The notes below the pieces were generated by a model, which searched no databases, was not told the origin of the DNA, and was given only the letters and a program-made list of their open reading frames with translations. A DNA stretch of 64,000 nt, from positions 744,001 through 808,000 of the forward strand of contig OW285196.1 of the NCBI GenBank assembly GCA_935421135.1, in the 5' to 3' direction. This stretch comes from Bugulina stolonifera. Taxonomy: Eukaryota > Bryozoa > Gymnolaemata > Cheilostomatida > Bugulidae. Positions 4,201 to 54,400 of this stretch are shown piece after piece. The position numbers and the translations under genes were made by a program. The stretch's first letter is position 1. Every line of letters starts with the position of its first letter.

Positions 4201-7200
4201 CATATTGTATAATATAATACATCCACCCAATCAACTGTGGAATATATACATACAGGTAGAATAATTAATCATATTTCATGTATGACTCAAGTAGGTACAT
4301 ACTCGATATTACAGAGACAACTGGAATGGGACTGTATAATAGGCTAAGCATAATAATGAGTGTAATATTGTATACATGTACATGATTGTATAGTAGTAAT
4401 ATCTGGTGTCAGTTAGTCAGACGTAGGTATGCTTGCACCAGTATATGCAGTACTTACTTACATGTATATACACTTGTACCGTATGTATATACACTCGTAT
4501 TGTATGTGTACACTTGTATTGTATGTGTATAGACTTGCATTGTATGCATATAGACTTGCATTGTATGCGTATAGACTTGTATTTTATGTGTACACACTTG
4601 TATTGTATGTGTATAGACTTGTACTGTATGTATGTACTGTATGTGTATACACCTGTACTGTATGTATGTACTGTATGTGTATACACTTGTACTGTATGTA
4701 TGTACTGTATGTGTATACACTTGTACTGTATGTATGTATTGTATGTGTATACACTTGTACTGTATGTATGTATTGTATGTGTATACACTTGTACTGTATG
4801 TATGTATTGTATGTGTATACACTTGTACTGTATGTATGTATTGTATGTGTATACACTTGTACTGTATGTATGTATTGTATGTGTATACACTTGTACTGTA
4901 TGTATGTATTGTATATGTATACACTTGTACTGTATGTATGTATTGTATGTGTATACACTTGTACTGTATGTATGTATTGTATGTGTATACACTTGTACTG
5001 TGTGTATGTATTGTATACTGTTATACAGGTTACTGGACATGGTTGGACAGATGGGATCCCAGAGAGTTACACAGATCAGGGAGGCCATGTGTCTCCTAGA
5101 GTGTGTGGAATGTGTAAGAGCTGTTATGAACAGTAAAGTAGGTCTGGAGTACTTCATACAACACAGAGAACCAACCAGACAGCTGGTGGTGGGTAAGTGG
5201 CATTCTCTACCTCTATCTACATGTATTTGTACACCGTCTGCATTCTCTACCTCTATCTACATGAATTTGTACACCGTCTGTATTCTATACCTCTATCTAC
5301 ATGTATTTCTCCCACTGGTATGTACTACATGTATTTTTCCCTCTGTATGTACTATATGTATTTTTCCCTCTGTATGTACTACATGTATTTTTCCCTCTGT
5401 ATGTACTATATGTATTTTTCCCTCTGTATGTACTACATGTATTTTTCCCTCTGTATGACACTTGTGGAAGTACCTACATGTACTTCCATATCAATGCTAA
5501 TTACTGGGTAATTAAATTCCAGCAAGTTCCATTCATTTAACCGCCATAATCATGATATCTAATACAGTCATGTACATTCACCTCTTCCTCACCAACTAAG
5601 ATGTGTTTATTAAAATTAAAATTATCCAATAAACTTACTGAAATCTAGTGGAATGGTTGGGTGGTGTCGCGTGCCCGCAGAAAGGAGCTGCACAAGTCTA
5701 TAACATATTTCCTAAGCTATCTATCTGTCTCCGGTCATTGAATTAGAGAGATGCACTCCGATCATGTGATTCCTTTCATCCACGAATTAACAGTTACTAA
5801 ATACGGGATGAGAGGTGTCGATATGTTGAGGTTGGGTTTGAGCTAAGAGCAGACAACTTACAAAATGAAGAGAATACAACTCAATTTTTGAAGATTCGTA
5901 AAGTATTCGCTACATTATAACATGTACAAAGTTTCTTATCACGTATTTAGTGAATGTTAATACCTTTTTCATCGTTATTTATAGCCTTAGATACTACAAA
6001 CACAATGGTGAAGAAACAGGTGGTGGAGCTTTTGGCAGCCCTTACTCAGTACTCCAAGGATGGTTATAACACCACACTACATTCCCTAGAGCATTTCAAG
6101 GTATTCACTGCAAATTAACCTAATGACTCACATAACATATTATTTGTTCTGATGACTCACATAACTGTCTGCATATTCTCATTGATGCTCATAAATGTGA
6201 AAATAAATATACAATTGGTTATTATCTCCATGTACAGCCCTTCCGTGCCCACAACATTGGATCAGTTGCTAATGGTTGAGTCGGAGCAGCTGTATGCAAA
6301 CTGATCCTTTTTGAGAAGATTACTCTGTGTCACTATACTTCCATCCCTCTCTCTCTTGCTATACACTGTATACACACGTTATATGATACATATGTCGTAT
6401 GGGTATACTCATATGTATTGTCTACTCCTTTAACAATACAGGTAGCATACAAACAGAGGTACAGATTCAGTATACTGGTTAACGAGCTGAGAGCAGCTGA
6501 ACTCTCTCAGTACCAGTCTAGTCTGCTCCTGCTTATAAACTGCATGATAGAAGGCAACTCCGGCTGGTCAACCGGCTCTCACAGAAAGGTCATCAGAAGT
6601 GAATTCATAGGCAAGTCTGGTACTGAACCACTAAACCACTGAATCACTAAACCACTGAATCACTAAACCACTGAATCACTAAACCACTATACCACTAAAC
6701 CACTGAACCACTGATACTGAACCACTGATACTGAACCACTAAACCACTGCTATTCACTGGTATTGAATTTGAATGGCCTTACATCAAATAATGCAAATCT
6801 ACTTGTCTGTTTGGTACATAGGTAAAACTATTTTGTCCCCATAGTAACTAATCATAGAATGGCGACTAATTATAGAATAGTAACTAATTATAGAATGAGG
6901 ACTAATGTTATAGAATAGTAACTACTTATAGAATGGTGACTAATTATAGAATAGTAACTCATCATAGAATGGTGACTAATTGTAGCATGGTAACTAATTA
7001 TAAAATGGTGACTAATTATAGAATAGTAACTAATTATAGAATGGTGACTAATTGTAGAATAGTAACTAATTATAGAATAGTGACTAATTATAGAATGGGG
7101 ACTAATGTTATAGAATAGTAACTACTTATAGAATGGTGACTAATTATAGAATAGTAACTCATTATAGAATGGTGACTAATTGTAGCATAGTAACTAATTA

Positions 7201-10200: not shown

Positions 10201-13200
10201 ACCAGGCATTCCTGGTATACCACCACCGCCCCTTCCCCCAGGAGTTCCTGGCGTACCACCACCTCCTGGGGGTGGTTCACTAATGGTACTTCCTGGAAGA
10301 AGGCCGAGTGGCTGTGTAGTTCTCACACCAAAGCCCAGCAGAAAAATGAAGTCGTACAATTGGGCAAAGATACAGAACAGACAGCTACAGAGTAAGTACT
10401 CACCTTCACACACCTGCTCATACATCTTTGATGTATCACTCAGATCCATTAGCTTTATCCAAACATTTTGCATATTTTCTATGGTTCAGGGTTCTTCAAC
10501 GTAATCTTGATACAGTAAATTAGTTAGTAAGTTAGTAAGTTAGTTAGTAAATTAGTAAGTAAGTTAGTAAGTTGGTTAGTTAGTAAGTTAGTTAGTAAGT
10601 TAGTTAGTAAGTTAGTTAGTAAGTGAGTAAGTCTATAGGTTTTGTTGAGGAAATGCAGTAGTTACTTAGTCAGTCAGCAATTCAGTCAGTTAATTAGCTA
10701 GTCAGTTAATTAGATGGTCAGTCAGTTAGTTAGTCAGTTAGTTACATTTACACTTTACATGTAGACGATCAGTAAGCTAGTTTAATCAGTAAGTTAGTTG
10801 AGACAAACTACTTCACTCAAGCCAAGCATCCGAATTTCATTAGTGATTAGGTGGTCGGTGTGTATGCGGAGTAGGAGTCATTCTCTCAACAGCATTTATC
10901 TGCATCACTTGCAGGTTCCGAGGAGAACGTCTGGGCCCAGGTGGCTCTGGTTGAAGACAAGGTCCACCCAAACTATGAACGAGTGGAAGAGCTTTTTTGC
11001 CAGAAAACTATTGACAAAACGGCAAACACAGCACCCGATCTCAAAACAAAGAAGAAAACGGAAGAGGTACATGTACATATCTACCTGCATGCACACAGTA
11101 GCTTCCCCCTTTACTCTTTTTTTCTATGCGTTTTGATAGCAATCATTTTTCTTACAATATAAACGTACATTTTGTCCGTGGAGGAGTGGCAGATGATGAT
11201 ATGATATTGATTGACAGATATCTCTGCTGGACTCAAAGAAGAGTATGAATGTAAACATATTTATGAAGCAATTCAAAATGCCAAACTCAGAGGTTATCGA
11301 GAAGTTAAGGCAAGGTGACCATGAGGTCATAGGTCAAGAGAAGCTCCTCGGCCTGCTGAAAGTCCTTCCATCAACAGAAGAGGTGAGTTTATAATGGTTG
11401 CATGCTTGTAGCATCTCAAACAATGAGATACCAGCCCGTTTAGGAGAGTATTATATACTTGTATGATCGAATTTGCGACTGTTCGAAAAAGACAGTTCGG
11501 AACAGAACGTTTTGAAACTGGACAGTTCCAAACCAGACAGTTCCAAACCCCAACCCCCAGATTTCAATTAATTTTTATTTTAAACATTATGATTTTTAAT
11601 TAATTTCATGAATTAAATAAATGAACTAAAATTAATGACCTGGGAGTTGTGTTCTTCTAAATGTAATCTACAGTTATTAACTGTCCTGTTTCGAACTGTC
11701 TTTTTTGAAATGCCCCTTCACCATATGATCATGGCATCTGAAAAGGATCACATTTGGGACATCACAAATAATGTGGAGTTGCAACACATAGCCTAAATAA
11801 TTGTAACACTTTTATAAGAATAATCCAACGATGGAAGACAACTCCGAGAAGCACTTGTCGTAATCTCCTGGGTGTGACCTACATGTACATAGTCAGCATA
11901 TCAATGTACATGTACAGTGTGGACGTTATACACGTACAGTGTGGACGTTATACATGTACAGTGTGGACGTTATACATGTACAGTGTGGACGTTATACACG
12001 TACAGTGTGGACGTTTGAATAAAAACAAATACATACTATTTGTGTTATTTTTATAGTTTTATTTATTGATTTCAATTGAAACAATATAATACTATTTCAA
12101 ATGAAGGTAATATATATATATACATGTAGGTCAGCCTATTAAAATGCACTATGAGGGTTGAACTCTGGTCACTTACTAGATCAGATATCATTGGCTGCTT
12201 GATGTATTTATTTATGATTTATTACATTAAAACAGGTGGAGACAATCAAGTCATTTGACGGTGATGTTACAAAGTTGGGATTTGCCGAGAAGTTCTATAG
12301 GGAGTTACTTACTCTCAATGGTGAGATTGTTGTGTAGTGTTGTGTGTTACCATTACTAGCATGCAATAGCTAAATAGTTCTTATAATGTGCATCTACTTT
12401 GTATAATCTATATGCATACTGTATACTCTATATTATACTATAGTCTATACTTCTATATCTACATGTATACTCTATATTATACTATAGTCTGTACTTCTAT
12501 ATCTACATGCATACTGTATACTCTATATTATACTAGTCTGTACTTCTATTTCTATATGCATACTGTATACTCTATATTATACTATAGTCTATACTTCTAT
12601 ATCTATATGCATACTGTATACTCTATATTATACTAGTCTGTACTTCTATTTCTATATGCATACTGTATAACTATATTATAATATAGTCTATACTTCTATA
12701 TCTATATGCATACTGTATACTCTATATTATACTATAGTCTGTACTTCTATATCTACATGTATACTCTATATTATACTATAGTCTATGCTTCTATATCTAT
12801 ATGCATACTGTATACTCTATATTATACTAGTCTGTACTTCTATTTCTATATGCATACTGTATAACTATATTATAATATAGTCTATACTTCTATATCTATA
12901 TGCATACTGTATACTCTATATTATACTATAGTCTGTACTTCTATATCTACATGTGTACTCTATATTATGCTATAGTCTATGCTTCTATATCTATATGCAT
13001 ACTGTATACTCTATATTATACTATAGTCTGTACTTCTATATATACATGTGTACTCAGATTACAAGTTAAGAATAGAGACAATGATTGTAAAGACAGAGTT
13101 CTCAAGTATCTCCGTTGAAATCTCAAGTACTCTCAAGTTGTATGAGAAGGCTATCAAGGAGACTATGGAGTCTCATTCCTTGGATGCTTTCCTTAGACTT

Positions 13201-16200
13201 GTGCTTCAACTGGGCAACTTTATAAATACAGTAAGTACATATAGTCATGTATTACTAGTATATACAGTAAGTACATATAGTCATGTATTACTATTATATA
13301 CAGTAAGTACATATAGTCATGTATTACTATTATATACAGTAAGTACACATAGTCATGTATTACTATTATATACAGTAAGTACATATAGTCATGTATTACT
13401 ATTATATACAGTAAGTACACATAGTCATGTATTACTATTATATACAGTAAGTACATATAGTCATGTATTACTATTATATACAGTAAGTACACATAGTCAT
13501 GTATTACTATTATATACAGTAAGTACATATAGTCATGTATTACTATTATATACAGTAAGTACATATAGTCATGTATTACTATTATATACAGTAAGTACAC
13601 ATAGTCATGTATTACTATTATATACAGTAAGTACATATAGTCATGTATTACTATTATATACAGTAAGTACACATAGTCATGTATTACTATTATATACAGT
13701 AAGTACATATAGTCATGTATTACTATTATATACAGTAAGTACACATAGTCATGTATTACTATTATATACAGTAAGTATATATAGTCATGTATTACTATTA
13801 TATACAGTAAGTACACATAGTCATGTATTACTATTATATACAGTAAGTACACATAGTCATGTATTACTATTATATACAGTAAGTACACATAGTCATGTAT
13901 TACTATTATATACAGTAAGTACACATAGTCATGTATTACTATTATATACAGTAAGTACATATAGTCATGTATTACTATTATATACAGTAAGTACACATAG
14001 TCATGTATTACTATTATATACAGTAAGTACATATAGTCATGTATTACTATTATATACAGTAAGTACATATAGTCATGTATTACTATTATATACAGTAAGT
14101 ACACATAGTCATGTATTACTAGTATATACAGTAAGTACATATAGTCATGTATTACTATTATATACAGTAAGTACACATAGTCATGTATTACTATTATATA
14201 CAGTAAGTACACATAGTCATGTATTACTATTATATACAGTAAGTACATATAGTCATGTATTACTATTATATACAGTAAGTACACATAGTCATGTATTACT
14301 ATTATATACAGTAAGTATATATAGTCATGTATTACTATTATATACAGTAAGTACATATAGTCATGTATTACTATTATATACAGTAAGTACATATAGTCAT
14401 GTATTACTATTATATACAGTAAGTACACATAGTCATGTATTACTATTATATACAGTAAGTACATATAGTCATGTATTACTATTATATACAGTAAGTACAC
14501 ATAGTCATGTATTACTATTATATACAGTAAGTACATATAGTCATGTATTACTATTATATACAGTAAGTACATATAGTCATGTATTACTATTATATACAGT
14601 AAGTACACATAGTCATGTATTACTAGTATATACAGTAAGTACATATAGTCATGTATTACTATTATATACAGTAAGTACACATAGTCATGTATTACTATTA
14701 TATACAGTAAGTACACATAGTCATGTATTACTATTATATACAGTAAGTACATATAGTCATGTATTACTATTATATACAGTAAGTACACATAGTCATGTAT
14801 TACTATTATATACAGTAAGTATATATAGTCATGTATTACTATTATATACAGTAAGTACATATAGTCATGTATTACTATTATATACAGTAAGTACATATAG
14901 TCATGTATTACTATTATATACAGTAAGTACACATAGTCATGTATTACTATTATATACAGTAAGTACACATAGTCATGTATTACTATTATATACAGTAAGT
15001 ACATATAGTCATGTATTACTATTATATACAGTAAGTACACATAGTCATGTATTACTATTATATACAGTAAGTACACATAGTCATGTATTACTATTATATA
15101 CAGTAAGTACATATAGTCATGTATTACTATTATATACAGTAAGTACACATAGTCATGTATTACTATTATATACAGTAAGTACACATAGTCATGTATTACT
15201 ATTATATACAGTAAGTATATATAGTCATGTATTACTATTATATACAGTAAGTACACATAGTCATGTATTACTATTATATACAGTAAGTACATATAGTCAT
15301 GTATTACTATTATATACAGTAAGTACATATAGTCATGTATTACTATTATATACAGTAAGTACACATAGTCATGTATTACTATTATATACAGTAAGTACAT
15401 ATAGTCATGTATTACTAGTATATACAGTAAGTACACATAGTCATGTATTACTATTATATACAGTAAGTACATATAGTCATGTATTACTATTATATACAGT
15501 AAGTACATATAGTCATGTATTACTAGTAAATACAGTAAGTACACATAGTCATGTATTACTATTATATACAGTAAGTACATATAGTCATGTATTACTATTA
15601 TATACAGTAAGTACATATAGTCATGTATTACTATTATATACAGTAAGTACACATAGTCATGTATTACTATTATATACAGTAAGTATATATAGTCATGTAT
15701 TACTATTATATACAGTAAGTACATATAGTCATGTATTACTATTATATACAGTAAGTACATATAGTCATGTATTACTATTATATACAGTAAGTACACATAG
15801 TCATGTATTACTATTATATACAGTAAGTACACATAGTCATGTATTACTATTATATACAGTAAGTACACATAGTCATGTATTACTATTATATACAGTAAGT
15901 ACACATAGTCATGTATTACTATTATATACAGTAAGTACACATAGTCATGTATTACTATTATATACAGTAAGTACACATAGTCATGTATTACTATTATATA
16001 CAGTAAGTACACATAGTCATGTATTACTATTATATACAGTAAGTACACATAGTCATGTATTACTATTATATACAGTAAGTACACATAGTCATGTATTACT
16101 ATTATATACAGTAAGTACACATAGTCATGTATTACTAGTATATACAGTAAGTACATATAGTCATGTATTACTAGTATATACAGTAAGTACACATAGTCAT

Positions 16201-17395
16201 GTATTACTATTATATACAGTAAGTACACATAGTCATGTATTACTAGTATATACAGTAAGTATATATAGTCATGTATTACTATTATATACAGTAAGTACAC
16301 ATAGTCATGTATTACTATTATATACAGTAAGTACACATAGTCATGTATTACTATTATATACAGTAAGTACACATAGTCATGTATTACTATTATATACAGT
16401 AAGTACACATAGTCATGTATTACTATTATATACAGTAAGTACACATAGTCATGTATTACTATTATATACAGTAAGTACACATAGTCATGTATTACTATTA
16501 TATACAGTAAGTACATATAGTCATGTATTACTATTATATACAGTAAGTACACATAGTCATGTATTACTATTATATACAGTAAGTACATATAGTCATGTAT
16601 TACTATTATATACAGTAAGTACACATAGTCATGTATTACTATTATATACAGTAAGTACACATAGTCATGTATTACTATTATATACAGTAAGTACATATAG
16701 TCATGTATTACTATTATATACAGTAAGTACACATAGTCATGTATTACTATTATATACAGTAAGTACATATAGTCATGTATTACTATTATATACAGTAAGT
16801 ACATATAGTCATGTATTACTATTATATACAGTAAGTACACATAGTCATGTATTACTATTATATACAGTAAGTACATATAGTCATGTATTACTATTATATA
16901 CAGTAAGTACACATAGTCATGTATTACTATTATATACAGTAAGTACACATAGTCATGTATTACTATTATATACAGTAAGTACATATAGTCATGTATTACT
17001 ATTATGTAACTACTATCCTTTCTCTATAATTCCAGCAGAAAATGTTTCATCAATCGTTTGGTCTATTTCTTCAGGGTAAATATTCAGGTGATGCTCAGGG
17101 GTTTAGGATGTCGTCCCTACTCAAACTCATAGATACTAAGGCTAACCGAGCCAGGGTTACTTTACTCCATTACATAGTAGAGGAGATAGTAGGACAGGAC
17201 CAGAATGTTCTAGACTTTGTACAGCATTTAGGACCAATTCTCAAGGCTATCATGAGGTTATAAGATAATAATATATTTTTATTATATCTGCAGTATAGTA
17301 TGCACATCTGCATGAGAGTATATACATGTATATACGTACAATAAAACCAAAGGTTCCACAGCTATTTTACTAATACATTATATACATGCATTATG

Positions 17396-51437: not shown

Positions 51438-54400
51438 CCAGTTCATCTCTGACAGGGGTTGATCCACCGTCATCCCCCTCATCCAGGACAGGGGTGGCAC
51501 ACCTTTCTACCCCATCATCTATCTCATCTCTCACAGGGGTACCTTCATCCTCTTCCTCTGCTACCGCCTAATTACATACATGCATATATATAATACATAC
51601 AATGTACCAGCATGTACATGCATATAATAGTATACTACTAGGTATAACATACATATAGTATACTACTAGGTATAACATACATTGTACATATAGTATACTA
51701 TTATGGTGAAACGCCTACCTGAGTGGTGGGTGGCCGAGACATGGGCGGTAGACTGGTCATGAGAAGTGGAGGGGCACCTCCAGCCCGTGCCATCATGGCA
51801 GGTGGTCCACTAGCTAAAGGATTGACACCTCTATTCATCATCATGGCAGGTGCCCCACTGGCACTCACTTGCATGTGCCCCTGTGCCATCTGGTTGGGAG
51901 AGAAGCCGGTGGTACTCTGGTGTGATATAGTTCCCTGGGTAACCCTGTAGTCATACCAACAGTGTGTAGACAGAATGTATATGTATGCTATGTTTATTTC
52001 ACATTAGAACTAGTTCATATTACTACATAGTAGGTAGCTATGCCGTACCGGAACTGGGTGGGCTGTGCTGGTGTCATGTGTGGCTGCTGATGCATGGGTG
52101 GTTGCTGCAGCAGGGGTCGCTGCATAGTTGGCTGTCCTGGCTGCATTAGGGGAGCCGCCTGATTTGGATGCATGGGGAGACGGTGCATTCTGATTGGCTG
52201 AACTGGGGGATGCCTCAGTCTCATGGGTGGTTGGCCAGGATGTACTGGTGGAGTCTGATGTCTCACTGCTGCTGATAAAAGAGAACAGCTGAGAATGTTA
52301 TGAAACACTGTAGGGTTCGTTTACCCAACCAGTTACCGGTTACTATACACTGCATGCAAGAAGTAGTACAGTGTATAGTATGGTATATAGTGCAGTGTAT
52401 AGTATATAGTGTAGTGTATTGTATATAGTGTAGTGTATAGTATACAGTGTAGTGTATAGTATATAGTGTAGCGTAGGCTACAGTGTAACGTAGTATTTTA
52501 TAGTACAGGATAACTAGGGTGTAGAATGTAGTAATATACCAACCTGTAACATGCGCATACCCTTGACTGGGAGGGGCTTGAGGCAATAACGTAACATTAC
52601 TCTGAGGGATACGGACACCTACAACCATACAAACAGTCTACAGCCAATACTACTAGCCCTCAATAGGTGTGGGAAGCTACTGCGAACCTACAACTGCCAT
52701 GGGTAGAGGCTGCAGCATACACTAACAGGTAGAAGGTATAGAGGTACAAAGTATATACTAACAGGTAGAAGGTATAGAGGTACAAAGTATATACTAACAG
52801 GTAGAAGGTAGAAAGGTACAAAGTATATACTAACAGGTAGAAGGTAGAAAGGTACCAAGTATATACTAACAGGTAGAAGGTAGAAAGGTAAAAAGTATAC
52901 ACTAACAGGTAGAAGGTAGAAAGGTACAAAGTATATACTAACAGGTAGAAGGTAGAGAGGTACAAAGTATATACTAACAGGTAGAAGGTAGAGAGGTACA
53001 AAGTATATACTAACAGGTAGAAGGTAGAGAGGTACAAAGTATACACTAACAGGTAGAAAGTAGAGAGGTACAAAGTATATACTAACAGGTAGAAAGTAGA
53101 GAGGTACAAAGTATATACTAACAGGTAGAAGGTAGAGAGGTACAAAGTATATACTAACAGGTAGAAAGTAGAGAGGTACAAAGTATATACTAACAGGTAG
53201 AAGGTAGAGAGGTACAAAGTATATACTAACAGGTAGAAGGTAGAGAGGTACAAAGTATACACTAACAGGTAGAAAGTAGAGAGGTACAAAGTATATACTA
53301 ACAGGTAGAAGGTAGAAAGGTACAAAGTATACACTAACAGGTAGAAAGTAGAGAAGTACAAAGTATACACTAACAGGTAGAAAGTAGAGAGGTACAAAGT
53401 ATATACTAACAGGTAGAAGGTAGAGAGGTACAAAGTATATACTAACAGGTAGAAGGTAGAAAGGTACAAAGTATACACCTAACAGGTAGAAGGTAGAAAG
53501 GTACAAAGTATATACTAACAGGTAGAAGGTAGAGAGGTACAAAGTATACATTAACAGGTAGAAAGTAGAGAGGTACAAAGTATATACTAACAGGTAGAAG
53601 GTAGAGAGGTACAAAGTATACACTAACAGGTAGAAGGTAGAAAGGTACAAAGTATACACCTAACAGGTAGAAGGTAGAAAGGTACAAAGTATATACTAAC
53701 AGGTAGAAGGTAGAGAGGTACAAAGTATACATTAACAGGTAGAAAGTAGAGAGGTACAAAGTATATACTAACAGATAGAAGGTAGAGAGGTACAAAGTAT
53801 AGGTTACTATAAACTCACTTCCAATAGTAGAGATCTTTTTCACAACCTCAACTGGTTCTTTCTTCACGTCGTCCTCATGTTTGATGGGCAGCTGTACCAC
53901 TGGTTTGGGGGTCGGCATGTTTCCACCACTAGTATCAATAGTAGGTTCAGCCTTGATCTTAACTTCTCCAGTGGTGGATACAGGAATGGGTACACTAGTG
54001 GAAGGTACACTGGTGGTGGTTACTGAAGGGGTGGATGTAAGGTTGGAGGCAGTGACTGGTTCCTCTTCACTCTTACTAACTGGAGTTTTCACTGACTTCA
54101 TCAGTCCAGCCAGCATTTGAAGGGGGTCCTTTTCCTTCCCCTCCACCTGGACTGAGCTCGGCCTAGCCTCAGTCTTACTGATGAGACCAGAGAGTAGGTC
54201 GAAGGGGTTCACTGCAGCCGCTGGCTTAGCGGATACCTGACTAGAGGTAGAGCTAGCGATCGACTACAACATACACATAATACCTTCAGATTTAACTACA
54301 TGTACATGTACACTGTATATTATACACCTGCATAATACGTACATGTATATAATATTAACATGCGGGTATTAAATAGATACTATCTAGACTAGGTCAGGGC

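Follow-up and report, generated by a model that had tools for sequence, protein, structure and literature searches.

A donor ladder within an INF2-type formin gene

The window, the whole 64,000-nt stretch of Bugulina stolonifera DNA analyzed here, carries on its plus strand a gene that, once spliced, encodes an FH2 domain (Pfam FH2, 3.4e-76). The best-matching solved structures are those of inverted formin-2 (INF2; 2.8e-54) and, judged by these matches, the gene is an INF2-type formin. Exon models and Pfam place FH2 exons of this gene at 10915..11066, 11218..11382 and 12236..12320. A further FH2 exon, identified by Pfam and by alignment to INF2, spans 13058..13230 and ends in ...QLGNFINT in phase 0, and the next, identified by alignment to INF2, spans 17075..17256. 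When these last two are joined directly, the 13230/17075 junction aligns gap-free to INF2 (GNFLNYGSHTGDADGF), in agreement with a sequence-only reading that had placed the repeat described below inside FH2, between these exons.

The 3844-nt intron that separates the two exons opens with 3775 nt of a 36-bp repeat and closes with a nonrepeat stretch (17006..17074) ending in the acceptor at 17074. Tandem Repeats Finder delimits this minisatellite at 13226-17005 (period 36, 105.0 copies, 97% matches, 0% indels, score 7119), and each copy contains a 5' splice site. By sequence count, ACAGTAAGT occurs 105 times on the plus strand within 13228-16980, with the donor GT running from 13231 to 16975, and no further copy lies on the plus strand of the window outside the array. 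We refer to such a series as a ladder and to its donors as rungs. Rung 1 is the GTAAGT at 13231..13236, whose use restores the conserved protein junction, and rung 105, the final donor, lies at 16975..16980. Donors are spaced by exactly 36 bp in 104 of 104 intervals, as expected from the sequence-only claim of 105 identical, evenly spaced donors with no indel. The extent claimed for the ladder, 13231..17005, is correct for the donors, which begin at 13231, but the array match itself begins at 13226, five bases within the exon, since exon and repeat unit both end in ATACA.

Across the 104 full units, four of the 36 columns vary (8, 10, 28 and 31) and the donor 9-mer is invariant. Neither the exon's frame nor one minus-strand frame contains a stop codon, and the remaining four frames have 105, 106, 114 and 307. 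The unit is thus the stop-free, phase-0 block of 12 codons that had been described, and it encodes the peptide read from it (V-S-T-[YHI]-S-H-V-L-L-L-Y-T), with one additional 12-mer variant and a unit 105 that grades into flanking sequence. An exact-unit pattern, which misses six units carrying T in column 8, gave 99 forward matches across the genome, all at the INF2 array, and none in its reversed control. Recursive splicing at the INF2 rungs was considered and rejected: the unit reads ACAG/TAAGT, and joining at AG leaves no GT. At the other end of the intron, extra in-frame acceptors (CAGCAG, with AG at 17035 and 17038) lie behind a good pyrimidine tract and would insert 13 or 12 residues.

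Among 430 long candidate proteins, none held the exon together with the repeat. A shorter query, for which 8000 candidates were scored, also returned no exon-plus-repeat product and yielded one relative, P0001, which is 75% identical to the window protein over the FH2 exon preceding the ladder. P0001 has the same exon end, followed by V-S as a GT..AG donor would translate, and similarity stops there. The nine codons visible past the exon end contain no repeat, and the open frame probably ends at a stop codon rather than at the end of a contig. The intron upstream of this exon (12321-13057) consists mostly of a 51-bp array that ends two bases short of the exon. It is missing from P0001, in which the two exons are fused, and was either gained in the window genome or lost in P0001.

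Ladders at other exon ends

It has long been asked how one of several equal 5' splice sites is selected, and tests have mostly used two sites in a plasmid. The Bugulina stolonifera genome offers natural ladders at 11 exon ends, with between 3 and 105 near-equal donors each. Searching the 235-Mb genome for three exact copies of CAGGTAAGT at gaps of 12-42 nt gave 520 matches (318 + 202), and the reversed pattern gave 7. A donor-killing one-base change, CAGATAAGT, gave 20 matches, all from two arrays, with 11 for its own reversed control. The ACAGTAAGT pattern matched 1353 times versus 31 when reversed, a count that includes the window's own array and has reversal as its only control. Because matches overlap within arrays, it is the arrays that must be counted. 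Among the matches listed, we read 23 arrays, 15 with CAGGTAAGT, located on contig C1 or within the initial 18.9 Mb of contig C2, and eight with ACAGTAAGT, located within the initial 9.4 Mb of C1.

Ten of the 23 listed arrays start at the end of a coding exon in sense orientation: eight of the 15 CAGGTAAGT arrays (L021, L024, L025, L026, L027, L031, L032 and L034) and two of the eight ACAGTAAGT arrays (L045 and L047). Homology is firm in seven of these ten anchored exons (condensin Cnd3, F5/8C, PIGO_PIGG, plexin, ABCF, neurofibromin and Ufd2P_core), the Pfam hit of the neurofibromin exon lying under the cut-off. For the L045 exon, the only matches were under Pfam cut-offs (ephrin-receptor-like, ELAPOR1-like), and the L021 and L025 exons are supported by their open frame, with no protein family found. 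In 262,515 bases, just two unmasked frames stayed open for 110 codons or more, too few for a coding-hexamer model.

Another six arrays are antisense: each lies in an intron that precedes an exon of the opposite strand. That exon was identified by Pfam in two cases (L022, kinase; L033, smoothelin) and by its open frame, with no family, in L041, L043, L044 and L046. The last seven could be assigned to neither class (L023, L028, L029, L030, L035, L042 and L048). Given these antisense and unplaced arrays, sense exon edges account for only part of the excess of donor motifs. Four antisense-motif arrays (L022, L043, L044 and L046) end at or near apparent opposite-strand acceptors, and acceptor ladders may exist too. 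L042 is a second very long ACAGTAAGT array, with 38-bp steps over about 2.6 kb (G000:C1:1004752-1007331), and its upstream flank was assigned to no exon.

The anchored ladders share a precise relation to their exons. In 10 of the 11, INF2 included, exon donor and repeat share exactly the same register, the exception being L021; we estimate that random placement would produce this match in roughly one of every 25 to 46 arrays. The copied exon tail measures 0 nt in L027 and L047, 5 nt in the INF2 window and up to 32 nt in L024. Together, the register and the copied tails fit duplications that crossed the exon edge. The 36-nt unit of the condensin ladder (L024, reversed locus 4841-5092) runs from GTAAGT through the pyrimidine-rich exon tail to GCAG and resembles a tiny intron.

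Choice of rung and reading frame

Because the rung 1 junction is ungapped relative to INF2, rung 1 yields the ancestral protein. We also joined the exon before rung 1 to the next exon in condensin subunit 3 (L024), neurofibromin (L034), plexin (L031) and ABCF (L032), checking acceptor AG and phase, and aligned the products to solved structures. All four junctions are ungapped; the single gap in the plexin alignment lies 15 residues into the query, away from the junction. All five of the ladders tested by homology (INF2 and these four), out of 11 anchored, have their conserved junction at rung 1. In these four genes rung 1 should also be the main choice, since later rungs would break the proteins.

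The donor site itself gives rung 1 no advantage. Computed pairing to U1 is -7.0 to -8.2 kcal/mol for the rungs, with -7.0 for both rung 1 and rung 2 and -8.2 for one variant. By the same calculation, other donors of the INF2 gene range from -4.2 to -10.8 kcal/mol and the full consensus reaches -14.0 kcal/mol. With pairing equal or nearly so, position must decide donor choice, and the likely rules are how close the upstream acceptor lies, how long the exon is and in what order the sites are transcribed. At INF2, rung 1 would most probably be chosen nearly always, helped by being the first to be transcribed and by exon definition that starts at the acceptor 173 nt upstream, and the remaining 104 donors would be removed together with the intron. 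The puzzle is how splicing finds rung 1, rather than a family of 105 proteins.

Rung 1 may nevertheless dominate with some leakage at rungs 2 and 3 that would produce a handful of minor, functionless isoforms, a serious possibility to which we assign somewhat less than an even chance. Human IFI6 (6-16, G1P3) contains a repeat whose unit is 12 nt long and is present in about 26 copies. A minisatellite with multiple splice donors was reportedly described in this gene by Turri, Cuin and Porter in 1995. According to an excerpt of PMC4526556, two downstream repeat units of IFI6 act as donors, producing three mRNAs of which the form encoding 130 residues predominates. Because IFI6 uses downstream units in this way, and with equal donors adjacent to each other at INF2, some leak by the same route is plausible there. 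Strong leakage, however, would be costly in the other 10 ladders, where it would nearly always bring a stop or a frameshift. Since most ladders are out of frame, leakage should be readable as frameshifts. We consider it unlikely, but worth stating, that the genome holds a whole class of ladders, perhaps dozens to hundreds, in which position alone governs donor choice with a measurable probability that falls at each rung, and that INF2 thereby makes a graded set of FH2-insert proteins. If choice does depend on position only, with every INF2 rung in frame, INF2 would be a natural ruler of donor choice.

The in-frame property is real: 104 of 104 later rungs at INF2 keep an open frame, so every donor choice there leaves the frame intact, as the sequence-only reading had claimed. 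That reading also suggested that one locus could make up to 105 protein lengths, and here a ladder serving as such a device finds no support. The periods of the 11 anchored ladders are 36, 23, 36, 38, 34, 46, 35, 38, 25, 29 and 33, of which three are divisible by 3. Each of those three ladders lacks stops in one phase out of three, and this phase coincides with that of the exon at INF2 only. One fully open ladder is therefore expected by chance, and one was seen. Because the INF2 ladder was picked for its openness, the other 10 form the unbiased sample of frames. In a rung-by-rung count that took GTAAGT and GTGAGT and covered L045 and L047 within their 1-kb loci, the 93 later rungs include a single open one (L021, at an irregular +24 step), four that frameshift without a stop and 88 that hit a stop.

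These counts bear directly on the idea that INF2 makes a set of proteins differing by 12-residue steps in FH2, with the open frame kept by selection. The fully open ladder, the intact donors and the two downstream units employed by IFI6 (excerpt of PMC4526556) would all suit such a set, but openness at the chance rate, the 1/93 elsewhere, conservation of rung 1 in five of five ladders and the failure of either protein search to find an exon-plus-repeat product make it highly improbable. The insert is also hydrophobic (mean hydropathy +0.76 and +0.92), and a 12-mer of this kind is probably a poor insert for a packed domain. As the frame is not kept across the ladders of this class, we rejected the protein-length device as the main reading.

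Nothing we found points clearly to a function that would preserve the later rungs. In a column test that left out arrays with few units or cut off, seven anchored ladders had 8 varying donor columns versus 9.6 expected if donor columns behave like others, and four other arrays had 9 versus 8.7. In the INF2 array alone, none of the four variable columns is a donor column (p = 0.30), so intact donors by themselves say little for a set of proteins. Counted by cell, donor bases do vary less in eight anchored ladders (10/1152 versus 178/5349 for the rest), with 8/426 versus 35/1203 in other arrays. The cell count leans toward preservation, although cells copy each other and the sample is biased, all arrays except the window's having been found via intact donors.

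A related proposal is that the donors act in RNA as a binding platform for U1, either as a decoy or as a shield against early 3'-end formation. Each of the 105 sites can form at least 7 pairs with U1 by our calculation, and ladders recur in the genome. The intron of the INF2 ladder, however, contains neither AATAAA nor ATTAAA, which leaves no canonical 3'-end signal to be shielded from and undercuts the earlier suggestion that the ladder protects the intron from premature 3'-end formation. Considering too that later donors are not preserved in the column test, and that period, rung number and orientation vary widely among arrays, we rate the platform as slightly less probable again than the set of proteins. 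Least probable of all is that the copy number is an assembly artefact: a near-identical 3.8-kb array is difficult to assemble, but its unit variants are irregular along the array and more such arrays occur in the same 27-contig assembly.

Origin and growth of the ladders

From the sequence evidence, we think it probable that the ladder is a minisatellite that grew by tandem duplication across an exon/intron edge and was tolerated as rung 1 wins. The initial duplication would have spanned the edge, carrying the donor and the last exon bases. Each copy would bear a donor because the duplicated piece included it, and the duplications would be tolerated because the copy adjoining the exon still makes normal mRNA. 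Afterward, the array may have expanded to 105 copies through exchange or slippage, in part by blocks of about 14 units. A 15-unit block of unit labels is repeated at a 14-unit offset, against a longest block of 14 and a 95th percentile of 11 in shuffles (n = 300), which fits growth by multi-unit exchange. Autocorrelation of the unit variants gave a best z of 2.7, below the 95% limit of 3.0.

Tandem arrays make up 28% of the window, and five of the six introns between 10391 and 18093 hold one, indicating that minisatellites are common in this genome. The donor ladders are the portion of them that touches splicing, and they would show minisatellites seeded by exon edges.

The closest known case is IFI6, where, as excerpted from PMC4526556, a tandem repeat at an exon end carries a donor in its units and downstream units are usable as donors. 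At INF2, too, the donor within the repeat is that of the intron itself, and repeat and exon end share one register. While the excerpt describes one human gene with two downstream units in use, the ladder reported here has 105 rungs in a different gene and is accompanied by 10 further anchored exons. As far as our literature search reaches, a donor-bearing minisatellite in one human gene was already known, and the number of rungs and their recurrence across a genome are new. The search found no genome-wide donor ladders, which is weak evidence of absence since subscription journals lie mostly beyond its reach.

Two other systems are related. A section of PMC4974935 (citing Rogers 1989, Hellsten 2011, and Zhu and Niu 2013) describes how introns are gained when AGGT-bearing segments are duplicated in tandem. 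As in the cases set out there, including one in fission yeast with repeated 24-bp units, a stretch with a splice signal was duplicated in tandem and the protein would be unchanged. In those cases a new intron arises within an exon, whereas the INF2 intron already existed and had its donor multiplied. Gain of the ladder intron by this route was rejected because P0001 shares the junction, running through the same exon end into VS. In C. elegans, the intronic minisatellite CeRep25B has been tied to multiple splicing decisions by a statistical link; unlike the INF2 ladder, it is presented in the abstract of PMC4039745 in terms of intronic motifs, and the abstract names no donor copied in the unit. 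Elsewhere in the window, at 52717-53801, lies another 36-bp array, of 30 copies, whose unit has a branch-like ACTAAC followed by AG/GT.
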